The notes beneath the pieces are model-generated. The model searched no databases and had not been told where the DNA came from. It worked only from the letters and a program-made list of their open reading frames with translations. From positions 1 through 23,097 of IMG/VR virus record IMGVR_UViG_3300031757_000023: a DNA stretch of 23,097 bases, one strand, 5' to 3'. Below, piece after piece: positions 2,446 to 15,486 of the stretch; positions within the stretch are counted from its first letter, which is position 1, and each line of letters starts with the position of its first letter. The position numbers and the translations under genes were made by a program. Source of the DNA: a virus.

Positions 2446-2875
2446 TACTAAATTCCGTTATTTCATGTTCTAACCACTTTTCAGCAAGACATACATATAC
2501 CCCTAACCAAGAGACATACATATACCTAATATTACTTTGTGGTTTTCGTACTGTTGCTACAAAAAATTGTGCATAATTAGCTTTATAAAATAGTAAAGGC
2601 TCAAGACTATTATCCTGTGCTTGTTTTACTACTTTTGTCCACCATTGCACAAAGTTATTACTTTTATTAGTAAAGAGTTTAGAGGTTACCGAATCATCTC
2701 TATAGAATTTTACTTCTATAAGAAATATGTTATGCTTGTGTTCAAGGTATATGTCACCTTTTATTTTACCACTACCTGAACCCGGCGTTTGAACAAAGCC
2801 CAGTCCTGTGTATCGATTCAGCATATTAACGACTAAGGCTTCTGCCTTAGCCCCTTTCTGGCGACTATTAACCAT
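2384..2875 (-). CDS. PD-(D/E)XK nuclease, Holliday-junction-resolvase (Hjc)-like
   Basis: 163 aa. The N-terminal half has the layout of archaeal Hjc and related resolvases: SRQKGAKAE with Glu12, a TPGSGSGKIKGD segment with Asp41, and IEVK with Glu54 and Lys56. These are the expected metal ligands and catalytic lysine of the PD-(D/E)XK fold. It probably cuts branched or recombining DNA, which fits neighbours FEN and gp46/gp47. The C-terminal half is aromatic-rich and unrecognised. The start overlaps the end of the acyl carrier protein gene by 8 bases, and the end overlaps the FEN gene by 62. The fold is well supported; resolvase rather than another structure-specific nuclease is an inference. 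Confidence 0.75.
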   Translation of the reverse strand: MVNSRQKGAKAEALVVNMLNRYTGLGFVQTPGSGSGKIKGDIYLEHKHNIFLIEVKFYRDDSVTSKLFTNKSNNFVQWWTKVVKQAQDNSLEPLLFYKANYAQFFVATVRKPQSNIRYMYVSWLGVYVCLAEKWLEHEITEFSNGNRIYEPWKASPEWELADS

Positions 2876-3089
2876 TATCTTCGATATATTTTATTAGTTC
2901 CTCTACTGTATGGATATTCTCCACATCTTCGTCTGGAATTTCCAATTCAAAATGTTCTTCTAAATTCATTACTAATTCAACTATATCTAACGAGTCTGCT
3001 CCTATATCGTCCATAAAACTGCCTCTAACAGCATCTGTGTCTATGTCGAAATGTTTAGCTACTATGCCTTTAACTTGATCCGCGATCAT
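2868..3089 (-). CDS. acpP: Acyl carrier protein
   Basis: 73 aa, close to the roughly 78 aa of bacterial AcpP. It carries GADSLDIVELVM, in which Ser33 of the DSL motif is the site for the 4'-phosphopantetheine arm. The acidic helix II and the IHTVEELIKYI segment complete the four-helix ACP pattern. A holo-ACP synthase of the host would have to activate it. ACPs carry acyl chains for lipid, lipid A or acyl-amino-acid synthesis, or bind partner proteins. Its neighbours are nucleases rather than lipid genes, so its role here is open; the one candidate partner in the window is the acyltransferase-fold protein at 12145-12741. The ATG overlaps the stop of the upstream CxxC gene (ATGA), after a GGAGATACATT ribosome site. 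Identity is near certain. Confidence 0.93.
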   Translation of the reverse strand: MIADQVKGIVAKHFDIDTDAVRGSFMDDIGADSLDIVELVMNLEEHFELEIPDEDVENIHTVEELIKYIEDNG

Positions 3090-5117: not shown

Positions 5118-6042
5118 TATACACTCCTATAATATTTTTTATTTTATTCCCATCTAAACTTAGTATTTTATCTAAATATACTATTAGTTCATCACTAATA
5201 GTCATTTCAGAAGTAAGATTTAAAGTTGCTTCAACCTCTCGTTTTACAACTTTTTTATCTAATAATTCCGAGTTCTTTACTAAAGCTAAGTCCTGTACAT
5301 CTCCTTCGAGTTCATATATTGTATGATCCCAATCAGTTGCTATCATGTCATCTGGGCTGTCTACTGTTTTTCTAAGTAATTGGGGCAGGTTAAATTCCCC
5401 CCACTTCCAACTAAAATCTTCGTCTATCAGTAAATAGCCCGTCCGAACATTGGTTCGATGAAATGATGTTGTCATTGGACTACCAGGATATACTATGTTC
5501 CTTTGAGTATTCTCGTGGGCATGTAAATCCCCCGCAAAAACAAGATCAAATTTATCAAACCTATCTAAATCAACTTCAGGTATCACATGAGGTGGAATTT
5601 CACCCCTTACATGAGTAAACAAATATGGGATACCGCTTATTGATTCAATACTATTTTTTCTATGCAAGTCAGCATAAGGTAATATAGCAAAACCTTTTTC
5701 TGGATACAGCATAGTTACATCTACTATCTCAACCAGAGAGTTTATTTCTTTTGTTGCTTTCTTTAGATTAGAAAAGAAAGTTTTATTTTTCCTAGTGGCT
5801 TCATGATTACCGTCATATATAATAGTCGGTATCGTTACTCCACTAATAAAATCGAAATAAAGTGTTAATTCGTCCATAGAGGGAACTCGATCAAACAAGT
5901 CCCCACCTATGATATGCATATCACAGTCAGTTTCCAACTCTTTTATTTGGTCGAAAAATAACTTATAACGAGCGCACGCCCATTCCATTGGTACATTCTT
6001 CTGCCCTAGCTTTAAGTGCCAGTCTGCTGTGAATAAAATCAT
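5086..6042 (-). CDS. gp47: Recombination nuclease subunit gp47 (SbcD/Mre11-like)
   Basis: 318 aa. Calcineurin-like metallophosphoesterase forming the nuclease part of the gp46/gp47 complex. Metal ligands are visible in order: Asp7 and His9 in FTADWHL, Asp48 in GGDLFDR, Asn79/His80 in YDGNHE, His144 in FTHVRG, and His174/His176 in GDLHAHEN. Length is close to T4 gp47 (about 340 aa). The C-terminal third is the less conserved capping and partner-binding part. The ATG at 6042 overlaps the peroxiredoxin stop (ATGA) and has an AGAGGA ribosome site about 9 bases ahead, inside the peroxiredoxin gene. Confidence 0.95.
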   Translation of the reverse strand: MILFTADWHLKLGQKNVPMEWACARYKLFFDQIKELETDCDMHIIGGDLFDRVPSMDELTLYFDFISGVTIPTIIYDGNHEATRKNKTFFSNLKKATKEINSLVEIVDVTMLYPEKGFAILPYADLHRKNSIESISGIPYLFTHVRGEIPPHVIPEVDLDRFDKFDLVFAGDLHAHENTQRNIVYPGSPMTTSFHRTNVRTGYLLIDEDFSWKWGEFNLPQLLRKTVDSPDDMIATDWDHTIYELEGDVQDLALVKNSELLDKKVVKREVEATLNLTSEMTISDELIVYLDKILSLDGNKIKNIIGVYNDYSTKTELG

Positions 6043-6548
6043 GCTACGAAGTCCTCTCCGTTGTGCCAGTTACAACCAGTAAGTCCGCCAGCTCTGAGAG
6101 CCTCAAGTGTCCTTTCGACTTCATAGTGGTTTCTTCCTGTATCGAGAGCATTCACTGCTAAAGATTGAATGACGTTATCCTCATCGAGGATAAAGGTGGC
6201 TCTGTATGGAACCCATTCATTAGATACTATTCCTACTTCCATAGCAAGTTGATTACTACAATCTGCTACTAGAGTATGTTCTATATCACGGATAAGCTCA
6301 TTGTCTTCTTTCCATGCTATTTTACAGAACTCGTTATCTGGACTGAATCCCAGAACGTCTACATCATTTCCTACTAATGCATCGAAACCCTGTATTTCTG
6401 TAGGACATATAAAAGTGAAGTCTTTTGGATAAAAGTATAGTACAGACCAACTTCCTAAAAGTCCGTTGTCATCTATATCTACAAAGTTATTATCCTTGTC
6501 AACACCTGTTAGTTCAAATTCAGGGAATACATCGCCTACCGTAATCAT
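6039..6548 (-). CDS. 2-Cys peroxiredoxin (AhpC/Prx1 type)
   Basis: 169 aa. Thiol peroxidase that reduces hydrogen peroxide and organic peroxides. The peroxidatic Cys48 lies in DFTFICPTE, the family signature, and the conserved Arg lies in VPYRATF. A likely resolving cysteine is Cys159 in GCNWHNGEDF, matching the C-terminal motif of typical 2-Cys AhpC enzymes. Length is slightly shorter than bacterial AhpC (about 187 aa). No dedicated reductase such as AhpF is seen, so it would use host thioredoxin or similar. It sits between the ssDNA-binding protein and gp47, joined by ATGA overlaps on both sides, so it is expressed with the replication genes and may protect infected cells or replication proteins from oxidation. 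Confidence 0.92.
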   Translation of the reverse strand: MITVGDVFPEFELTGVDKDNNFVDIDDNGLLGSWSVLYFYPKDFTFICPTEIQGFDALVGNDVDVLGFSPDNEFCKIAWKEDNELIRDIEHTLVADCSNQLAMEVGIVSNEWVPYRATFILDEDNVIQSLAVNALDTGRNHYEVERTLEALRAGGLTGCNWHNGEDFVA

Positions 6549-7171: not shown

Positions 7172-7571
7172 AATATTTCTCCGTTGTTGTCTCCTCAAAT
7201 TTAAAGTGAATAAACCCCTCTCTAATTTCGAGCAGTCTGTTTTTTCTAATAATGTCCTCACTAACTTTACAGAAAATGAGGTCTAAGTTGGTATCTTTAG
7301 TTTTTACGTACTCATGATAATTGCGGTATGATGCGACACCAACATATTCTGCAACTTCTTTATCACTATATTGAGCACGACCAGTAGTAAGTAGTTTATC
7401 TGGGTTTATCAGAAAACTACTACCACCAAAATTCTTTTCATAAAACTTAAACGTTTTATCATAATAATTCTTAGGTGTAATTCTATAAGTAATTATTCTA
7501 AGGATTGTAATAATGTCACCAACGTTTCCGTTGCTCGCTTCTACAATCTTTTTCCAATTATAATATATCAT
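7161..7571 (-). CDS. Conserved-looking protein of unknown function downstream of a consensus promoter
   Basis: 136 aa, not recognised. It starts MIYYNWKKIVEASNG and is rich in Tyr, Lys and Phe, with helices predicted around 8-30 and a segment YSDKEVAEYVGVASYRNY that resembles a helix-turn-helix (residues about 68-85). It could therefore bind DNA, but this is weak. The end overlaps the ssDNA-binding protein start by 11 bases, after a GAGGAGACAAC stretch. The ATG at 7571 lies only 2 bases after a perfect TATAAT, so the mRNA made from that promoter would start at or just inside this codon. Translation would then be leaderless or would use a later start. Read-through from the upstream helicase gene could also supply it. 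Confidence 0.7.
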   Translation of the reverse strand: MIYYNWKKIVEASNGNVGDIITILRIITYRITPKNYYDKTFKFYEKNFGGSSFLINPDKLLTTGRAQYSDKEVAEYVGVASYRNYHEYVKTKDTNLDLIFCKVSEDIIRKNRLLEIREGFIHFKFEETTTEKYYGN

Positions 7572-7648
7572 ATATTATACCAAAAATACAAGCGTTTGTC
7601 AAGCACTATTTTTTCTCTGCTCAACACATTCCCTTTAAACCCTTTCAT
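7568..7648 (-). CDS. Possible 26-residue micro-ORF spanning the promoter
   Basis: A short frame starts at ATG 7648, sharing ATGA with the UvsW-like helicase stop. It ends in a TGA that shares ATGA with the start of the next gene at 7571. The peptide is basic, begins MKGFKGNVLS and ends LYFWYNI. No clear ribosome site precedes it and the promoter hexamers lie inside it. It may be a coupling relay that carries ribosomes from the helicase to the next gene, or chance. Existence as a functional peptide is uncertain. Confidence 0.2.
   Translation of the reverse strand: MKGFKGNVLSREKIVLDKRLYFWYNI
7574..7602 (-). promoter_or_regulatory. Consensus sigma70-type promoter
   Basis: On the minus strand TTGACA (7602-7597) and TATAAT (7579-7574) are separated by exactly 17 bases, both hexamers being perfect. 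Upstream is an A-rich run. It would drive the block from the unknown 136-aa protein through the ssDNA-binding protein, peroxiredoxin, gp47/gp46 and ribonucleotide reductase. It indicates use of the host primary sigma factor. Its twin lies at 19671-19699. Confidence 0.85.
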
Positions 7649-8925
7649 AATACTCTAACCTTATAATCTTGTTTTATGTAATAACCCATTCTGGCGTTTG
7701 CCTGTCTAGTAGCTGTTTTACCTTTTAAATGAATATCTACAACAGTAGGCTGTAACTTGCCCTCTTTTTGTCGTATTACTCTACCAATTAACTGCGTTAA
7801 TAGTGGTTCATTATTTACTGGTGTAGCCAATACTAAACAACTAAGATCATCTAAAGATATACCTTCTGAAAATATTGCTTGTGTTCCAAACAGTATATTT
7901 TTAGATCTCCCAATTAGTTTCATAGTTTTCTCTCTTTCCACAAAGTCCATATCGCCTGTAATACATACTGAATTATCTCCTACCAATTTATGACAAACTT
8001 TTAGAAATGCAACTCTATCCGATACTACTAATACTTTATGCCCTTCAGCTGCATACTTAGAAGCAATCAAACTAATACTATGTACATATTCTTCTGTATT
8101 TACTAGATGATTAACTCTTTCTGCCCATGGGGTATAAGAACCGTCTAGAAATCGTACTTCCGATTTAATAACATGAACTTTTGGAGTCATGTAATTTTCT
8201 TTTGGTGGTTTTAGTACTGTACTTCCAAAGTAGTCTCTAAATACTACATGTCTTCCGTCTTTCCGTTCTAATGTTCCTGTCAGTCCAACCTTATATCTTG
8301 CAGGCATTTCATCTATTATTCGGGTAAATGTAGGGGACGAAACGTGATGCATCTCGTCTAAAATAACTGTTCCGAATAAACGTTTTATATCGTCTACGCG
8401 ACGGTATAAAGTCTGAATGTTCCCCACTACTATTGGGGGCGAAGTGTTCATTTCCCCTGACCCGATTCTGCCAGCCCGTATGCCGAAAGCTTTCTGTACT
8501 TCTTTTTCCCATTGATTCCTCAAATTAGTTGTATGTGTAACTACTAGTGTTTTTTGTCCAAGTTTCTTAGCTATTGCTAAAGCTGCTACTGTCTTTCCCC
8601 AACTTACCCAAGCGTTAATTATAGCGCTGTCTTCTACTTCATCAACTGTCATTTTTTGACTTTGCCTTAAAGTAAACTTAAATTCAGGAAAGTCTACAGG
8701 CACAGATACTCGCTTATCGATAATATCATAATCATCTGGGATTAAATCCAATCTTCCCATAGGTATAGAAACTAAACCATCTCTTAAAGGTCTTATTGTT
8801 TTTATAACCATAGGTGGATCTTGTGGCATACGGGGAGGTAATGTATATGTAAGTTCTTCCTCCATCTCCGTAAGCAACGCAGTATTTCCTTCTATTTGTA
8901 TTCTGTTACTTAAAACTGCCTTCAT
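7645..8925 (-). CDS. uvsW: SF2 DNA helicase, UvsW-like
   Basis: 426 aa from the ATG at 8925, preceded by the strong ribosome site GGAAGGACAA; the frame is open further up but inside the neighbouring gene. Superfamily 2 motifs: a Q-motif-like FTLRQSQ near 84-90, motif I AWVSWGKT at 105-112, motif II DEMHH at 190-194, motif III LTGT at 215-218, and motif VI QLIGRVIRQ in the C-terminal RecA-like domain. Motif I has Ser where most SF2 proteins have Gly. Such enzymes unwind or remodel branched DNA, R-loops and stalled forks and support recombination-dependent replication. A RAD25/XPB-like annotation would be the alternative. The N-terminal 80 residues are a probable substrate-binding domain. Confidence 0.88.
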   Translation of the reverse strand: MKAVLSNRIQIEGNTALLTEMEEELTYTLPPRMPQDPPMVIKTIRPLRDGLVSIPMGRLDLIPDDYDIIDKRVSVPVDFPEFKFTLRQSQKMTVDEVEDSAIINAWVSWGKTVAALAIAKKLGQKTLVVTHTTNLRNQWEKEVQKAFGIRAGRIGSGEMNTSPPIVVGNIQTLYRRVDDIKRLFGTVILDEMHHVSSPTFTRIIDEMPARYKVGLTGTLERKDGRHVVFRDYFGSTVLKPPKENYMTPKVHVIKSEVRFLDGSYTPWAERVNHLVNTEEYVHSISLIASKYAAEGHKVLVVSDRVAFLKVCHKLVGDNSVCITGDMDFVEREKTMKLIGRSKNILFGTQAIFSEGISLDDLSCLVLATPVNNEPLLTQLIGRVIRQKEGKLQPTVVDIHLKGKTATRQANARMGYYIKQDYKVRVL

Positions 8926-9020
8926 TTGTCCTTCCATGCAATATAGAATAATATAAAGCACATACTGAACAATATCAAGTAGCCTGTCCACACACCTATA
9001 GGTAATTCTTGAGGGGTCAT
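8922..9020 (-). CDS. 32-residue single-span membrane protein
   Basis: A tiny frame between the 90-aa membrane protein and the UvsW-like helicase. Its ATG shares ATGA with the upstream stop, and its TGA shares ATGA with the helicase start, so it fills the gap with no base unused. After MTPQELPIG comes one hydrophobic span of about 19 residues (10-28) ending in the basic tail WKDK. No good ribosome site is seen, so translation would depend on coupling. The fit and the clean membrane helix support a real gene; the function is unknown. The helicase ribosome site GGAAGGAC lies within its last codons. Confidence 0.6.
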   Translation of the reverse strand: MTPQELPIGVWTGYLILFSMCFILFYIAWKDK

Positions 9021-9289
9021 ACCAAATACATACTTATATAAGTTTTTGCTAGGAATAGTAAACCTACTCCATTTAATAAAATCAAAGCTCTATCTTTCCA
9101 CACAAGAGATACTATTAACCACATGAATACTCCTATAGTTGATAACATTAGATCCCACTCTGTTAGATGAGGAACCCCTCTTATAGACATAGCACAAAGT
9201 ATAACTACACTAGCTATCCACTTTAAGTACCAATCATAAGTAGTTGTTCTATATCTACCCCATAATTCTGATGTTTTTTGCTTTTTCAT
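9017..9289 (-). CDS. Small membrane protein, three predicted spans
   Basis: 90 aa. After a basic N-terminus (MKKQKTSELWGRYR) three hydrophobic segments are seen, near 20-37, 45-65 and 70-89. No lipobox, holin-type charged tail or known motif was recognised. The start shares ATGA with the stop of the L33-like gene. It could sit in the inner membrane; a holin role is possible by topology alone, but there are no lysis genes around, so no function is assigned. Confidence 0.65.
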   Translation of the reverse strand: MKKQKTSELWGRYRTTTYDWYLKWIASVVILCAMSIRGVPHLTEWDLMLSTIGVFMWLIVSLVWKDRALILLNGVGLLFLAKTYISMYLV

Positions 9290-9483
9290 TTTGTGTGTCT
9301 CGGTAACTTTGCTTCTACAAACATTTCATGTTTATTTTTTACTGGGTTAAACTTTCTTAGTCTAAGTTTTTTACCATCTGAAAGCATACTTTTAGTTTTA
9401 ATAGTGCTATAATGATAGGTATGGCTATCCCTAGATTCTCCTTCTGGAATCATATATACAATTTGTTGTTTAGCCTTTGCCAT
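9286..9483 (-). CDS. rpmG: Ribosomal protein L33 homologue (bL33)
   Basis: 65 aa. Bacterial L33 is a small protein of the 50S subunit near the E site. The match is the family's C-terminal signature: KKLRLRKFNPVKNKHEMFVE followed by AKLP, against the usual pattern KLxLKKFDPVxRKHVxYKEAK. The N-terminus MAKAK and the TYHYSTIKTKSM strand also match. It lacks the CxxC pairs of zinc-type L33, so it is the zinc-free form. It is about 10 residues longer than bacterial L33 (50-55 aa), with an insertion near 14-22. The ATG at 9483 forms TAATG with the asnB stop. It may enter host ribosomes and alter translation, which is an inference. Confidence 0.85.
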   Translation of the reverse strand: MAKAKQQIVYMIPEGESRDSHTYHYSTIKTKSMLSDGKKLRLRKFNPVKNKHEMFVEAKLPRHTK

Positions 9484-10997
9484 TATATCTGTGTCCTAAT
9501 AAATTGTGCTGCTTGTATTCTCCACTTAGGACTTAGTCTAGGGTGGTTATTATCCCACGGGCTCGACCAACCCACTTTTTGAGTCCTTAAGCGCACATGT
9601 TCAGGTAAGTAATCTTTCATTACTTCCCGCATTAAAAATTTGTTTGTACCTTTTTTGTACTTCTTTGTTTGTCTAAATTTTACACTTCCTTTAATACTTA
9701 AACAATACTTAGCAAAAGATTGAGTAAGTAAAGGAATTCTACTTTCCATTCCAAACATTCCAGCAGTTTGATCAGTTGCTAAAATATTCTGTTCTGATGT
9801 ACATAGTAAATCTGAAAAAAGAGAGTTATTTAGATGATCATCTCCAAACGCTTTATATGGAAACCATCTCTGTTGAGACATGAATCTAGTCATGTTTTCA
9901 CATTCATTTTCTCGAAATCTGTTTCTATGGTGATAGTATCCTGTAAATAATTCATCTCCACTATCTCCTGTAAGAACTACCTTACACCCTGCTGCTTTAG
10001 CTGCTTGGCATAGAAGATAACGAGGAGCCTGTCTATTATGATCAGCCCACATATAGTGTGTATTTGCTAACCACATCTTTCCAAAGTGCGCTCTATCATC
10101 TCTGTCTAGGGTTATTCTATGTACTTTATACCCCCAGTCTCTAGCAGTTTTAACTGCCATATCAGATTCCCAAGCGTGTTCTTTATGTAATCCGTGTAGC
10201 CCCTGTTGATTTAAGTCATACCCCATTGTAAAAATTTCTAAATCTAAATCAGAATCTCTTAAAAGGGAAGCAACTACTGTACTATCCATTCCACCACTTA
10301 AAAATAGTGCTGTCTTATTTATATTTTTTGCAACTTTATGGACTGCTTCTTTGATATTAAATCTAAATTCAGCCGTATCTAACGGCTCAGATCCAATATC
10401 AAAATAGCTCCATAGGTTTCTTCTATGAAGTTTAAAATTATCGTTTAAATCAAACTCTAACCACGCACCTGGCTCTACCTTATAGATAGACTTATAGATA
10501 CTTTGATCTCCAAAACTTTGAGTATTTTCTAAAAATTTACTACTAAATCTAGACTCATCAATTTCTTTACCTAGAAAACTAGTCAGAGTTGTACTAAATT
10601 CAAACTGCTTTCCGTCCCATCTCCACCATAAAGGTTTCGCCCCAAAATGATCTCGTATTAGAACTAGTTTGCCCTGCTTAGGTAGGTACCACGCGATTGA
10701 TCCATGCCAATCTGTATGCTCCAAAAATTTGAATCCATACTTGTCTAATGCTTTTCCTAGCCATTCTGTATCATTGGGAATTGTCGTGTCATACATCTCT
10801 CCATTAAATAATAATACATTGCCCTTAGGTGTTATATAAGGTTGTACTTGCCTTTCTCCATTGATGTCTAAGAGTACATGAGCAAAGGCAAAATTTTCAT
10901 CATTCCAATACTCAAGAGCATCAGGTCCGCGATGCTCCTGCTTCTTTATCATCATCTCTATTAGAGGGTGATTAGTAGTTCCTGCAAATCCGCACAT
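9483..10997 (-). CDS. asnB: Asparagine synthetase (glutamine-hydrolysing), AsnB type
   Basis: 504 aa from the ATG at 10997. This start places the nucleophile Cys at position 2 (MCGFAG), as required for class II amidotransferases; the frame is open 6 codons further up but those must be excluded. Glutaminase motifs: HRGPD at 22-26, FNGEMYD at 64-70, RDHFGAKPLWW at 115-125. Synthetase domain: PP-loop SGGMDS at 234-239 and GDSGDELFTGYY from 344. The Arg-Leu pair usual after the AHE segment is replaced (AHVLLDING), so one glutamine-contacting Arg may be missing. It makes Asn from Asp and Gln with ATP, or amidates another carboxyl group. The gene sits in an accessory island rather than the replication block. 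Overlaps TAATG on both sides. Confidence 0.92.
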   Translation of the reverse strand: MCGFAGTTNHPLIEMMIKKQEHRGPDALEYWNDENFAFAHVLLDINGERQVQPYITPKGNVLLFNGEMYDTTIPNDTEWLGKALDKYGFKFLEHTDWHGSIAWYLPKQGKLVLIRDHFGAKPLWWRWDGKQFEFSTTLTSFLGKEIDESRFSSKFLENTQSFGDQSIYKSIYKVEPGAWLEFDLNDNFKLHRRNLWSYFDIGSEPLDTAEFRFNIKEAVHKVAKNINKTALFLSGGMDSTVVASLLRDSDLDLEIFTMGYDLNQQGLHGLHKEHAWESDMAVKTARDWGYKVHRITLDRDDRAHFGKMWLANTHYMWADHNRQAPRYLLCQAAKAAGCKVVLTGDSGDELFTGYYHHRNRFRENECENMTRFMSQQRWFPYKAFGDDHLNNSLFSDLLCTSEQNILATDQTAGMFGMESRIPLLTQSFAKYCLSIKGSVKFRQTKKYKKGTNKFLMREVMKDYLPEHVRLRTQKVGWSSPWDNNHPRLSPKWRIQAAQFIRTQI

Positions 10998-11311
10998 TAA
11001 ACATTGCCGTCCCAATTAAGATCAGTTTGCTGTGCCATTTTTACTTTCCAATCTTTTCCTTCAATTTCTTGCCAAGCAACTATTGTATTTATATCAATAT
11101 CGTCCCATTTTTCAAATTCTAGATCATAACAAAGCATCTTCTGATCTGACGAATTTTGAGTCCAATCTTTATTAAATACTTGTGCGTTTCTTGGTAAGTA
11201 CTTATGACAAGTAGTTACTTCTCTTATTTTGTGTTTCCCACTAACTAAGCTAGTGTACTCTAATAAAATAATGCCTTCATGCATTTTGTCTATAATTTTT
11301 TGGTAATCCAT
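10997..11311 (-). CDS. Small WYL_2-like (SH3/Sm-fold) protein
   Basis: 104 aa. A basic segment GKHKIREVTTCHKYLP is followed by a variable linker and then KMLCYDLEFEKWDDIDINTI. This arrangement, with a strand-rich centre and an aromatic-acidic end, resembles the small WYL_2 / DUF2693 proteins common in marine phages. The C-terminal 30 residues are extra. Function is unknown for the family. Start and stop form TAATG junctions with the lipoprotein and asnB genes. The family call is tentative. Confidence 0.5.
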   Translation of the reverse strand: MDYQKIIDKMHEGIILLEYTSLVSGKHKIREVTTCHKYLPRNAQVFNKDWTQNSSDQKMLCYDLEFEKWDDIDINTIVAWQEIEGKDWKVKMAQQTDLNWDGNV

Positions 11312-11604
11312 TATGCTATCCTATGTATGTTTATGCACCAATGCCAAGCGTCAGTTTCCTGTAGCCCTTTACAATGCTCAAACATATCCATTGGAGGGTC
11401 TATAATTTGCTGTTCTATTTCTTTATCTAGTTCTCTTTCGATTTCTAGTGTTCTATCAGTTTCTTCACACAGATAAGTCCCTCTTTTATCTGTATAACAC
11501 AGCCCGTCTATTGGTTTATGTACACTACAGCCTACCATCATTATCAGTAAGACTAGTAGTACTAAAACTCCTTTTAAATATTCTTTTATCAAATCTTTCT
11601 CCAA
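11311..11604 (-). CDS. Predicted lipoprotein
   Basis: 97 aa from a TTG at 11604 that follows GAAAGGATAC; a second TTG 12 bases on (11592) with GGAG ahead is an alternative start. A charged N-terminus is followed by a hydrophobic core VLVLLVLLIMM and the lipobox MVGC with the lipidation Cys at 26. The mature part is acidic with four more Cys residues (in CYT, YLCE, HCK and WCI), which may form disulfides in the periplasm. It would be anchored to a membrane facing the periplasm. Possible roles include superinfection exclusion or envelope modification, but none is shown by the sequence. Confidence 0.7.
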   Translation of the reverse strand: MEKDLIKEYLKGVLVLLVLLIMMVGCSVHKPIDGLCYTDKRGTYLCEETDRTLEIERELDKEIEQQIIDPPMDMFEHCKGLQETDAWHWCINIHRIA

Positions 11605-12158
11605 GTATCCTTTCTTTTTTCTTCAGAAAACTCATATATCTTCCAAGGGATTCCGTGGTCGTATAAGACTCCTGCCCAAGTAATTTCTATATCGGGCGGG
11701 CTTTTTTCTGCGAATGGGAAGGGTACATCTTTAAGCCACAAGACTGTAGCTATTCCTTTCTTTTCTCTTTTTGCAATTTTATGATATTTTAACTTAAGAT
11801 TTCTTGTCTTTTCATAGTTTATGACTTTTCCGTCATTATCAATAAATGTGCTTCCCCTGTGCTTCATTAGTCCTATTTCATCTTCGATCATATACTTTAA
11901 GGGATAAATACTTTTCATTGGACTCTGTAATCTTCTTGCCCCTAAAGTTTCGCCTGGCATATTCAAGTCATCTAAAACTTGATCTTCAATCCACAGAATA
12001 CCATCTATTACTTCAGCACTATCTGTATGTATAACAAATAAGGGGAAAGTTAAGTCCTCTATAGTATACGCTCTGCTTTTTCGTAGTCTCATACATCTTC
12101 TCTGCGATTGCTGCCTTCTTCTTACTTTACTCTGGAATCGTCTTCTATGTCCTCTCAT
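11589..12158 (-). CDS. Unknown protein with basic N-terminus
   Basis: 189 aa from ATG 12158; a second ATG at 12092 with AGAGAAG five bases ahead gives 167 aa and is equally plausible. The longer form starts with a very Arg-rich stretch (MRGHRRRFQSKVRRRQQ), which overlaps the upstream gene and may not be translated. The rest is soluble and mixed alpha/beta, with landmarks TFPLFVIHTD, EVIDGILWIEDQVLDD, ATVLWLKDVPFPF and the end WKIYEFSEEKRKDTWRKI. The family is not recognised. The stop lies 16 bases inside the lipoprotein gene. Confidence 0.6.
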   Translation of the reverse strand: MRGHRRRFQSKVRRRQQSQRRCMRLRKSRAYTIEDLTFPLFVIHTDSAEVIDGILWIEDQVLDDLNMPGETLGARRLQSPMKSIYPLKYMIEDEIGLMKHRGSTFIDNDGKVINYEKTRNLKLKYHKIAKREKKGIATVLWLKDVPFPFAEKSPPDIEITWAGVLYDHGIPWKIYEFSEEKRKDTWRKI

Positions 12159-12741
12159 GTTTCTCTACATATGTAGCAAAAAGTTTCTCCGAATCCTGTT
12201 TATTTTCGGGTTCGTAAACCCACCTATATCCTATGTATCCCCATTGATCCATATGTTCCCCAATAAAATGCAAGTTTTTCTCTTGCTTTGCATATGCTAG
12301 TAATATTGGGTGTCCGTCTGCGTACGAATCTAGCATACCATTTTGAGTTCCTGCAATTCTTAATCCCCATTCAGGAGCCCACATGTGGCATACTGCATTG
12401 GAGGAGTCTGTAGGAAACATAGATACTCGCATATCTACTATTGTGCATTTATCCCATACAGGATATTGATACTCTACTCCTGTTTCTGCATGAGTATATA
12501 CATGAGTGTATGGATCACAAACTCTAGTACACCCTAGTAGCTTGTCTCGTTCCCAAATCAATATAAAATGTGCACTTTGATCGTGCTTATCAATTGGGTT
12601 CATTATACGTTTATTCCATACTACGAACTGATTCATTCGTTGTTCTAGTATTTTAAAGTATTCTTCTTTTGTTAAATCTTTGTAGTGTCGAATCTCTTTA
12701 ACGATTCCATCACTATATTCCTCTTTTACGATTGCTGACAT
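12145..12741 (-). CDS. GNAT-fold acyltransferase (LuxI / acyl-amino-acid-synthase-like)
   Basis: 198 aa. The region 35-75 has the order typical of the GNAT fold: Arg35 in EQRMNQFVVW, Asp51/Asp54/His58 in IDKHDQSAHF, then DKLLGCTRV. This order occurs both in general N-acetyltransferases (acetyl-CoA) and in autoinducer synthases and N-acyl amino acid synthases (acyl-ACP). A later VDMRVSMFP strand fits the acceptor side of the fold. Donor and acceptor cannot be told from sequence. The start at 12741 has AGGAG nine bases ahead and overlaps the 2OG oxygenase gene by 29 bases. The fold is moderately supported; the acyl-ACP version is only a hypothesis, of interest because the phage has its own ACP. 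Confidence 0.5.
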   Translation of the reverse strand: MSAIVKEEYSDGIVKEIRHYKDLTKEEYFKILEQRMNQFVVWNKRIMNPIDKHDQSAHFILIWERDKLLGCTRVCDPYTHVYTHAETGVEYQYPVWDKCTIVDMRVSMFPTDSSNAVCHMWAPEWGLRIAGTQNGMLDSYADGHPILLAYAKQEKNLHFIGEHMDQWGYIGYRWVYEPENKQDSEKLFATYVEKHERT

Positions 12742-13309
12742 CTTTTAAAATCTCCTGTTTTTCAAGCGTTCCGTAGCCTATTCTATTATCTTTATTATCT
12801 AGCGCACTATTCTTTTCAACATAATGTAAAAATAGATGCCTAGAAGTTTTATGAGGAAGGACGTTTCTACTGTGGTATATCTCGCAACCCTTATAAAAAA
12901 TAGCGTCTCCTCTTTGTAGTATTACTGAAGTTTGTGCTTCCCATAAACCACCTATATAATTTTCTGTAAAGTGCATTGGCCATACTCCTTTACTTACTTG
13001 TACAGTAATAGAGTATTCACATTGCCAACGATCCCTGTGCCATCTAAGTGAGGCACCTTTTTCATACTCTCTCATAAGTCCATAAGTAAGACTTAGAGTT
13101 TTACCTGTATATTTATTTATAACTGGAGTTTTATAAATTCCTATAGCTTCACAAAAGCTATCTCCATATAAATCAAAACTTTTCCCCTGTGGAAGTCCGT
13201 TGACATTTGCATACCTACATCTTCCTGCTTCTTTTTGTAGTCTTAAATGTTCTTCTAAAATATCACAGGTTTCTTGTTCTAAAAATCCTGATATAAGTTT
13301 ATGTTCCAT
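12713..13309 (-). CDS. 2OG-Fe(II) dioxygenase
   Basis: 198 aa. Iron ligands: His91 and Asp93 in RWHRDRW, and distal His146 in EIYHSR, with Arg157 in TSRHLFLHY as the 2-oxoglutarate-binding residue. The double-stranded beta-helix strands lie between them. This is the phage/prolyl-hydroxylase-like group; substrate may be protein, small molecule or nucleic acid. It lies between the QueC-like and acyltransferase genes, so it may act on the product of that island. Overlaps the upstream stop by 11 bases. Catalytic set complete. Confidence 0.8.
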   Translation of the reverse strand: MEHKLISGFLEQETCDILEEHLRLQKEAGRCRYANVNGLPQGKSFDLYGDSFCEAIGIYKTPVINKYTGKTLSLTYGLMREYEKGASLRWHRDRWQCEYSITVQVSKGVWPMHFTENYIGGLWEAQTSVILQRGDAIFYKGCEIYHSRNVLPHKTSRHLFLHYVEKNSALDNKDNRIGYGTLEKQEILKDVSNRKRGI

Positions 13310-14075
13310 CAGCTTTAAGAAAACGAGTATAATACTCTTTCCCTTCCTGATATCTAAACTTAGCGTCCTTTGCTAACTTATGTGCGGCTTTAAACTCTCC
13401 GCACTTGTAACATTCTCCACATGGAATATATCCAGTAATCTCATCATCTTTAGTAAGAGTTCCTTTAGGAGAAATACAAGTCCAAATCATTTTATATAGA
13501 TTTGGATCATGACGCATTATTAAAGAAAGCATTTCTGCTTTAGACATAAAATCTAAAGGATTTCTTACTTCTGGAACATCTCTGATTGCATCAAAGTGTA
13601 CACCAGATGTATCTAAACAATCGCTTAAATAATTTATCATAATTTTGCGGTACTCTCTAAACTGTAGACGCATACGCATATCATCTTCAGCGTTGCCTCC
13701 TAGCATAAACCATTTCCATTTAATACCTCCAGGAGCGCCTAATACACACCCCATAAAAGAACTAAGTCCACTTACAATAATTGGAACCTCTCGATGATAC
13801 CCACTCTTAGAAAGCATAGAAGTATCGTTTCCATACGGTAAATTAAAATATTCCGCCTGTTTTCTACTATAAAAAGCCATTGCGTCAGCAAAATCTCCAT
13901 AGCGTGGTTCGTACCAGTGAACACAGAAAGGTTTTATCTCTGGGTCTTTTACAGCATATAATAAAGTAGCTGTACTTTCTACTCCTGCACTAAGAGGCAT
14001 GTAAGCATTACAGTCAGAATTTTCTGCACACGCTTTGTTAATTTCTTCTGTCGATACTAATAAATCTTCTACCAT
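13299..14075 (-). CDS. QueC-like PP-loop enzyme (7-cyano-7-deazaguanine synthase family) with altered P-loop
   Basis: 258 aa. QueC makes preQ0 from 7-carboxy-7-deazaguanine using ATP and ammonia. Seen here: PP-loop-like PLSAGVESTATLLYA at 27-41, GGNAEDD at 126-132 (QueC has a GxNAxD segment), NPLDFMSKAEM at 172-182 (QueC: TPLxxLTKAEI), and a four-Cys zinc site, Cys200 plus CGECYKC with Cys219, 222 and 225. The standard P-loop SGGxDS is SAGVES here, with Gly to Ala and Asp to Glu, so activity or substrate may differ. No QueD, QueE, FolE, DpdA or other deazaguanine genes occur in the window. The ATG at 14075 follows AAAGGAAA and overlaps the stop of the small membrane gene. It could instead be a diverged ATP-dependent amide or nitrile-forming enzyme. 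Confidence 0.72.
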   Translation of the reverse strand: MVEDLLVSTEEINKACAENSDCNAYMPLSAGVESTATLLYAVKDPEIKPFCVHWYEPRYGDFADAMAFYSRKQAEYFNLPYGNDTSMLSKSGYHREVPIIVSGLSSFMGCVLGAPGGIKWKWFMLGGNAEDDMRMRLQFREYRKIMINYLSDCLDTSGVHFDAIRDVPEVRNPLDFMSKAEMLSLIMRHDPNLYKMIWTCISPKGTLTKDDEITGYIPCGECYKCGEFKAAHKLAKDAKFRYQEGKEYYTRFLKADGT

Positions 14076-14257
14076 TTTCCTTTAATCCATCGTTTTAATA
14101 CTATATCGCTAAAATGTTTTCCGCCTATCTTAATCATTATTGCAATCAAGCATAAACACATTACTGCGAATGAAGGGTTGTCGGGGGCTAATATCATACC
14201 TATTATACAAAATAATATGATAATTTTGTTTATATGTTTTTTAATTGTTTCTATCAT
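14069..14257 (-). CDS. Small two-span membrane protein
   Basis: 62 aa. A basic start (MIETIKKHINK) is followed by hydrophobic spans near 12-27 and 29-44, then a basic tail ending RWIKGKW, which places both ends in the cytoplasm by the positive-inside rule. No family recognised. It overlaps the sulfotransferase gene by 17 bases and the QueC-like gene by 7. Topology resembles small holins or regulators, but this alone is not evidence. Confidence 0.55.
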   Translation of the reverse strand: MIETIKKHINKIIILFCIIGMILAPDNPSFAVMCLCLIAIMIKIGGKHFSDIVLKRWIKGKW

Positions 14258-14861
14258 AATTTAATAATTCATAGTCTTTCTGATAGAATTTTTCCATCAG
14301 TTTTATACTATCTTTACTCCAGTTTATTGGTCTGTAAGTATTATTAGGAACATTAAAGTCATGCCGTGGCTGAATATTTAATGCTTCCCAAATTGTTTGT
14401 TCTTCTAATTTGTGTACCTCTGCTTCACCTATAAAATCTGTTTGAAAGTAAGGGTGATTCATATCTACTAAATATGGTTTATTATCTACTATTGTATCTG
14501 GTACATTATACATTAGTCCGTATATCATACGATAAATCCACTCCTCAAAAGGTGTATGTACTAACTTAGTCCATACAAAGAAGCGGTAAATACTCTCAAG
14601 TCTTGCTTGAGGGTGTCTTACTACAGTATAATATTTATAGTCTGGATAAAACTGAATCATCTCATGATACGTAGCGTGCTTCTTCTGAAGTTCTTTAGTA
14701 CCATGAGTGACTGTAGTCTGTTTCTGTATAGCTTGTTCCATTGGCTGCGGATTGACTAATGCCGTAGCGCTTCTATACTTTACTGCTAAAGCCCGTTCAA
14801 CACTTGTTCCACCCGTTCTCGGAATGTGAACAAATCCTAGTCTACCTTCGTTTACCAGCAT
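14241..14861 (-). CDS. Sulfotransferase family protein (PAPS-dependent)
   Basis: 206 aa from the ATG at 14861; a TTG at 14879 would add 6 residues. The 5'-phosphosulfate loop is FVHIPRTGGTSVE (residues 10-22) and the 3'-phosphate-binding element is VVRHPQARLESIYRF, with Arg82 and Ser90. This spacing fits the sulfotransferase family that includes heparan and chondroitin sulfotransferases (Sulfotransfer_2 type). It would move sulfate from PAPS to a carbohydrate, lipid or small-molecule hydroxyl or amine. No signal peptide or transmembrane anchor, so cytoplasmic. It lies directly after the dehydrogenase gene and before the QueC-like gene. Family call is firm; substrate unknown. Confidence 0.82.
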   Translation of the reverse strand: MLVNEGRLGFVHIPRTGGTSVERALAVKYRSATALVNPQPMEQAIQKQTTVTHGTKELQKKHATYHEMIQFYPDYKYYTVVRHPQARLESIYRFFVWTKLVHTPFEEWIYRMIYGLMYNVPDTIVDNKPYLVDMNHPYFQTDFIGEAEVHKLEEQTIWEALNIQPRHDFNVPNNTYRPINWSKDSIKLMEKFYQKDYELLNYDRNN

Positions 14862-15486
14862 CGATATTACTTTGTACAATAGAGTTAACTATATATTCAT
14901 TTGCTTTATTGACAACTTTTTCAATTTCTTCTCGTGGTATTTGTGGTGTCCCTATTACTAATTCAGGAACAACATACTTCTGTTCTTCTATTAAATTTAA
15001 CATTATTAGTGCGGCTGAGTAAGCATCTAAGAAATTCTCATTTTCCTCAACTACCATAGCGGTATTAACCCACCCCATACTAACATTAAAGATCCTACAT
15101 TTGTTATCCAAAGGCCATGTGTTAGCAGCCTCAATACAGTAGTCTCTTAATTCTGTTTTGTCTTTAGTATACGCATCGCCTGTTAAGCCAGGTTGATATA
15201 TACTTCCAGATCCAGTATTTACTATGTACTTACCTTCTCTGTCTCTCCATTGCCAATGTAAGACTTTTAAAATTTTGTTTTGAAGTCTAGGTAACCATGC
15301 GTTATTAAAAACATAATCTAAGTCTCTCCTTAGAATATCGTTAATAATATCATCTGCATCGTTAACTACCATATTAAAGCCTGTAGCTCTACTATAGCCA
15401 TGCACTTCGTACCCCTTAAACATGCAATGCTCATAGATTTCTTTACCTATTCCACTTGTATGTCCTGTAATTCCTACTTTTCTCAT
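14842..15486 (-). CDS. Short-chain dehydrogenase/reductase
   Basis: 214 aa. Rossmann-fold SDR: cofactor loop TGHTSGIG at 7-14, NNAW at 61-64 in the NNAG position, the Ser strand NTGSGS at 90-95, and the catalytic YTKDK with Tyr106 and Lys110. Catalytic Ser, Tyr and Lys are all present. It is slightly short for the classical SDR (about 250 aa). Oxidises or reduces a hydroxyl or keto group, perhaps a sugar, using NAD(P). The ATG at 15486 follows TAGGAAAGACA. It overlaps the sulfotransferase gene, suggesting consecutive steps in one pathway. Confidence 0.88.
   Translation of the reverse strand: MRKVGITGHTSGIGKEIYEHCMFKGYEVHGYSRATGFNMVVNDADDIINDILRRDLDYVFNNAWLPRLQNKILKVLHWQWRDREGKYIVNTGSGSIYQPGLTGDAYTKDKTELRDYCIEAANTWPLDNKCRIFNVSMGWVNTAMVVEENENFLDAYSAALIMLNLIEEQKYVVPELVIGTPQIPREEIEKVVNKANEYIVNSIVQSNIDAGKRR

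Follow-up and report, generated by a model that had tools for sequence, protein, structure and literature searches.

The window analysed here, a stretch of viral DNA of 23,097 nucleotides identical to virus record G000 (23,097 bases), encodes the ribosomal protein bL33 in its cysteine-free form, and a bL33 of the same type is apparently the sole bL33 of living cells in one clade of the marine gammaproteobacterial order SAR86. Among 151 genomes of that order, 68 carry the canonical bL33, 59 carry the phage type and none carries both.

The bL33 gene and its phage setting

The bL33 gene (an rpmG homologue) occupies 9286-9483 on the minus strand, 65 codons and a stop, and its product, MAKAKQQIVYMIPEGESRDSHTYHYSTIKTKSMLSDGKKLRLRKFNPVKNKHEMFVEAKLPRHTK, contains no cysteine. 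The protein scores 28.5 bits against Pfam PF00471 (Ribosomal_L33; cut-off 25, E 2e-6) and 25.4 bits against NCBIfam TIGR01023 (rpmG_bact; cut-off 23.95), and it misses the cut-off of the NCBIfam model NF001860 (PRK00595) with 24.5 against 50 bits, which leaves it outside the NF001860 subfamily; that is, it stands only just above two cut-offs and below that of the NF001860 model. The PF00471 match covers the conserved L33 core (residues 24-59; 9307-9414, minus strand) over profile positions 14-47 of 47 and, because it starts at position 14, leaves the first strand unscored. At E 0.01 the same profile matches all 34 members of alignment A6, which includes the window protein and was used for its AlphaFold2 model. 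A phmmer search against solved structures placed bL33 chains at the top (E about 0.002), and the best match of the window protein in PHROGs had an E-value of 0.038.

The AlphaFold2 model (mean pLDDT 76.9) consists of four strands and a short helix, with ends of low confidence (block means of 66 at the N-terminus and 49 at the C-terminus). When it was searched with Foldseek, rows 1-28 were all ribosome or mitoribosome entries, with no E-value below 0.001 and with unrelated USP14 entries from row 29 on; with VIA, all 50 rows listed were ribosome or mitoribosome entries, with Z up to 7.2. Normalized by target length, the TM-score of the model against ribosome entries reached 0.85. Purifying selection acts on the gene as a whole, with dN/dS of the window gene at 0.12, 0.21 and 0.15 against L004, L022 and L023, respectively; dN/dS lay between 0.01 and 0.24 in 8 phage pairs out of 14 pairs tried, the other six being one identical pair and five in which dS was not computable. 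A chance match to bL33 is rejected by the two curated cut-offs passed, the many relatives described below and the purifying selection. The initial annotation had read the product as an L33 without zinc cysteines and had named a profile search against the L33 family and a structure prediction as ways to check it. The PF00471 and TIGR01023 scores, the predicted bL33 fold and the absence of cysteine from all 65 residues bear this reading out, and the identity of the protein as a cysteine-free bL33 is confirmed.

Two traits that the initial annotation had singled out turned out to be shared with cells. The two CxxC pairs of zinc-binding (C+) bL33 are absent from the 65 residues, and the alpha- and gammaproteobacterial bL33 sequences that we inspected likewise have no CxxC pair, so the missing cysteines are not a special feature. 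Nor are the "extra 10 residues" a phage novelty, because cellular SAR11 bL33 is 63 amino acids long and has matching insertions, namely a PE insertion, a mid-loop insertion and an LPPHSK tail. In the window, the IPEGE codons (residues 12-16; 9436-9450, minus strand) form an insertion after the first strand that, in the alignments, is common to SAR11, phage and phage-type SAR86 bL33 and missing from canonical bL33. The C-terminal tail LPRHTK (residues 60-65; 9289-9306, minus strand) reads LPPHSK in SAR11 and in many phage-type sequences, and canonical bL33 ends in K-I-K or similar. The length changes common to the phage type, SAR11 and alphaproteobacterial relatives such as L326 are the PE insertion, two residues before KL and an LPPHSK-like tail. 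Three alphaproteobacterial genomes of 1.2-1.6 Mb (G410, G541 and G498, loci L326-L328) have a bL33 that looks intermediate between the canonical alphaproteobacterial and SAR11 types.

The bL33 gene sits in the replication block of a phage genome. Upstream lies an asparagine synthase gene with a glutamine amidotransferase domain (9483-11015, minus strand; Pfam Asn_synthase, E 1.6e-38), whose stop codon shares one base with the bL33 start codon (TAATG), and downstream a 90-residue DUF6552 gene (9017-9289, minus strand; Pfam PF20189, E 7.6e-17), whose ATG overlaps the bL33 stop (ATGA). The ATGA overlap suggests coupled translation in this three-gene run. The window further encodes a DNA polymerase (phrog_17, E 4e-150), a Toprim/zinc-ribbon primase, a DnaB-type helicase, a 5'-3' exonuclease, a phage PDDEXK nuclease, a metallophosphoesterase and a ResIII-type helicase; no tRNA genes were found in it. 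A sulfotransferase-like gene (14241-14879; Sulfotransfer_2) belongs to the same block, and elsewhere in the window are an AhpC/TSA peroxiredoxin gene (6039-6548), an acyl-carrier-type gene (2868-3089) and a gene at 13299-14075 that matches QueC-like queuosine biosynthesis weakly (phrog_1550, E 7e-6) and has no Pfam match. The INPHARED phage set contained no real relative of the window bL33 (two matches at E 10), and its matches to the window DNA polymerase were all below 60% identity, so that no close named phage was found there.

Distribution of the phage type among phages and SAR86

Relatives of the window protein are widespread in viral sequences. A scan of viral loci with the window protein as query returned 18 loci, and scans of viral contigs returned 124 encoding a relative with an alignment as query (80 kept), 111 with divergent members as query (80 kept) and 25 with L093 alone; these sets overlap. 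Gene neighbourhoods were compared in 32 phage records, the window included. The order asparagine synthase, L33, DUF6552, helicase recurs in the near records L020 and L021, and Hsp20, L33, ClpS and SufB families stand in a row in six others (L027, L030, L031, L033, L044 and L075), the names having been checked with Pfam in L027 and assigned by neighbourhood pattern in the other five. In L027 this row (7451-13027) amounts to a block of stress, translation and Fe-S genes, which in most of the six records is followed by SufC-, SufD- and desulfurase-like genes. The varied neighbours elsewhere mark bL33 as a cargo gene that many marine phages carry and that has often been reshuffled. A second phage bL33 group of 27 loci (L353-L379), retrieved with a SAR11 bL33 as query and 54-65% identical to it, lies on contigs of up to 328 kb.

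Among the genomes of 84,980 species, one scan detected 187 relatives, of which the best 80 were kept. Among these best 80, 45 loci at 62-68% identity were titled SAR86 or Gammaproteobacteria, except L105, which was labelled Rickettsiales; the other 35 were from Pelagibacterales or other alphaproteobacteria at 39-50% identity, except the partial L140 (65%). On the complete SAR86 chromosome CP097968.1 the phage-type gene is the sole PF00471 match, and it lies near genes that, judged by eye, we take to be gcvT, gcvH and gcvP, with one gene of 130 codons in between.

The two types exclude each other within the order. Searched with PF00471 at E 0.01, 125 of the 151 SAR86-order genomes had one bL33 and none had two, and the scores were bimodal (68 canonical at 58-65 bits, 57 phage-type at 17.8-27 bits); alignment A3 of the phage type added two genomes, which brings the phage-type count to the 59 given above. 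Neither type was detected in the remaining 24, for which genome completeness was not given; of the 15 such genomes that the rpoB tree includes, 11 group on the phage-type side and 4 fall with the canonical clade. The native position of the gene is empty in phage-type genomes: rpmB and rpmG are adjacent in all 10 canonical loci examined, whereas no rpmG match stands beside rpmB in any of 7 phage-type genomes examined (one locus, L183, is short upstream of rpmB), where the phage-type gene lies elsewhere. At L181 the maf match starts 8 positions past the end of the rpmB match, so that rpmG is missing from the rpmB-rpmG-maf order of canonical genomes. Across the class, the phage type was detected at E 1e-9 in 2 of 229 genomes, both of them SAR86.

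On trees of rpoB, each type corresponds to one clade. A match to rpoB was present in 127 genomes, and in a fragment tree of 95 of them all 40 canonical genomes fell into one clade together with 4 of unknown type (SH-aLRT 96). A rooted tree of 54 thinned rows (46 of those genomes and 8 other gammaproteobacteria as outgroup) recovered canonical SAR86 as one clade (99/95) and phage-type SAR86 as another (93/78, not starred), the latter with two subclades at 100/100 each. Gene neighbourhoods were mapped for 15 of the 45 SAR86 loci: the phage-type gene lies close to the gcv-like genes at all 3 mapped loci of one subclade and precedes a gene of family f1 or f27 at all 12 of the other. These two chromosomal sites could reflect two acquisitions, or one acquisition and a move.

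Origin, direction of transfer and proposed role

The phage-type L33 is closer to the SAR11 protein than to gammaproteobacterial bL33. Phage-type SAR86 L33 has a mean identity of 68% to phages, 46% to SAR11 and 31% to canonical SAR86, and in a 139-row L33 tree it forms a clade with the phages (100/99) that lies within a node including SAR11 (98/95), away from canonical SAR86. Identical proteins were entered in this tree once, and L019 and L140 (partial), L105 and L138 (ambiguous letters) and L174-L178 (second copies of loci) were left out. The L33 trees and AU tests draw on 65-67 columns, and bootstraps had not settled in the 139-row tree or in a tree with 15 added gammaproteobacteria (other rows thinned, L386 and L396 left out). 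An AU test on the 139-row tree did not reject a branch that sets all SAR86 L33, of either type, to one side (p 0.168), and placing phage-type SAR86 with all gammaproteobacteria in the thinner set with the 15 additions gave p 0.041. An origin of the phage type outside the gammaproteobacteria is thus well supported by the indels and identities and moderately by the AU tests.

In which direction the gene moved between phages and SAR86 is more finely balanced. In an 84-row L33 tree, the one with the most phages (rows thinned, L485 and L486 also left out), SAR86 forms one clade (92/85) inside the phage diversity, grouped with the phages L050, L055, L058 and L063 (89/80) and with other phage lineages outside, which suggests replacement from phage to host. 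In each of the 400 ultrafast-bootstrap trees examined, SAR86 shares a clade with only part of the phages; none recovered the phages as one clade, and 356 had SAR86 as one clade. We give an even chance to the reading in which phages brought a SAR11-like bL33 into SAR86, the native rpmG was displaced, the whole clade inherited the newcomer, and such phages still carry the same version. Capture from host to phage, which we put somewhat short of even, would mean that a SAR86 ancestor gained the SAR11-like bL33 by ordinary transfer and lost rpmG, and that SAR86 phages later copied the gene, the phage copy being a plain host-derived auxiliary gene. The position of the SAR86 copies among the phages differs between the 139-row, the gammaproteobacteria-added and the 84-row trees, and the order in the 139-row tree (L091/L093 phages, two SAR86 groups, 45 phages), at weak support (95/75 and 92/74), would suit such a capture; so would the AU tests, which reject neither one phage clade (p 0.466 in the 139-row and 0.429 in the 84-row tree) nor one SAR86 phage-type clade (p 0.389, 139-row), and so would a published transfer in this direction, that of bS21 from Pelagibacter to phage HTVC008M (PMC6375957). 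The nesting of SAR86 among phages in the 84-row tree, next to L058 with its large terminase, and the bootstrap trees speak against it, as does the minimum identity of 0.36 in phage copies against 0.73 in SAR86 copies, a difference that faster phage evolution may explain. We regard it as highly improbable that the phage L33 genes are instead fragments of SAR86 chromosomes called viral through mis-assembly. Half of the 20 L33-bearing virus records tested contained Terminase_6N; the 10 without it include the window and the Hsp20-L33-ClpS-SufB contigs L027, L030 and L075, whose Suf genes are also cellular. Against this, a large terminase is present in 7 of 15 other records of the window's L33 group and in 3 of 4 of the SAR11-like group, in L058 it stands two genes before L33, the window has its phage polymerase, primase, DnaB-type helicase and PDDEXK nuclease, and the neighbours of L33 in the window differ from those in SAR86. 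For the window and the L058 group, mis-assembly is largely refuted.

As for what the phage does with the gene, we consider it probable that it makes a working bL33 that is placed on the 50S subunit of a SAR86-like host. The protein would be produced from the putatively coupled run of asparagine synthase, bL33 and DUF6552 and would occupy the bL33 position close to the E site on the host's 50S subunit, with uptake on ribosomes assembled or repaired during infection. bL33 touches the tRNA in the E site and belongs to the ribosomal proteins that can be exchanged, and phage bS21 and bL12 enter E. coli 70S ribosomes (PMC6375957). As bL33 is peripheral and exchangeable, a phage copy can replace that of the host, and exchange into host ribosomes is plausible. 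The strongest sign that the phage copy may be functional and able to enter ribosomes is that its type is apparently the sole bL33 of living cells. L33 similarity and base composition point to a SAR86-like marine gammaproteobacterium with its own bL33 of the same type as the most likely host: the window has 36.0% GC, whereas the SAR86 loci fetched average 35.6 and 32.1% and the SAR11 loci 28.9%. Tetranucleotide correlation hardly separates the hosts (0.34 and 0.38 with SAR86, 0.30 with SAR11). By supplying its host's own bL33 type, a phage would preserve or convert the ribosomes produced during infection, with whatever effect on translation this may have. bL33 is dispensable in E. coli, so that the benefit to the phage is not obvious; the gain could be supply during fast synthesis or replacement of the host version, both of which are possible.

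The protein might also have kept the L33 fold while serving an extra-ribosomal role, for instance in RNA binding or host takeover, or while blocking the bL33 site as a non-productive decoy, and we think this unlikely. Its N-terminal part is divergent, with the profile match starting only at position 14 of 47, and viral bS21 cut E. coli ribosomes to about 5% activity (PMC6375957), a near-stop which indicates that a foreign protein may harm rather than tune. Set against this are the purifying selection on the whole gene and the 59 of 151 SAR86-order genomes in which the phage type is the sole bL33 detected, where an ordinary job is to be expected.

Significance and relation to known systems

If the transfer ran from phage to host, an abundant free-living bacterium would owe a core ribosomal protein to phages, and a gene carried by viruses would have become a lasting part of the core machinery of translation in a major ocean lineage. 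Earlier functional arguments for phage ribosomal proteins drew on sequence, field expression or expression in E. coli. The SAR86 sister clades with canonical and phage-type bL33 offer a natural experiment, in which ribosome takeover can be tested by structure and proteomics.

The initial annotation had called L33 much less familiar in phages than other ribosomal proteins, a view that published work corrects (PMC6375957, PMC13157829). Phage bL33 is thus already known; the mutual exclusion of canonical and phage-type bL33 in SAR86 is apparently unpublished, as we found no report of a bL33 swap in SAR86 in the openly licensed literature. Mizuno et al. (2019) found more than 10 viral contigs with a bL33, noted its enrichment in aquatic viruses and reported at least two virus-host transfers (PMC6375957). 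The likeness to our case is the presence of bL33 in aquatic viral contigs, whereas the excerpted text of that paper names neither a SAR86 host nor the loss of a cellular gene, such as is apparent in SAR86 here. The closest cellular form, SAR11 (Pelagibacterales) bL33, shares the PE and mid-loop insertions and the LPPHSK tail in its 63 residues, at 39-50% identity, but has no RDxHTYHY stretch and falls outside the clade of phage and phage-type SAR86 proteins in three L33 trees. Phage bS21 resembles our proposal in being a phage ribosomal protein proposed to substitute into host ribosomes late in infection; it is, however, another protein of the other subunit and comes with expression data (PMC9723584), whereas the present bL33 is known from sequence.

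The jumbo cyanophage PhiMa05 also encodes bL33, and two host genomes with PhiMa05 prophages are described as having, apart from the prophage copies, no genes for the same six ribosomal proteins (PMC13157829). This is a precedent for cells leaning on phage-borne ribosomal genes, with the genes in an integrated prophage; one strain has a decayed prophage bL33 copy and a bL33 open reading frame elsewhere (PMC13157829). In SAR86, by contrast, the phage-type gene occupies two chromosomal sites, as seen in the 15 loci mapped, across a whole clade.
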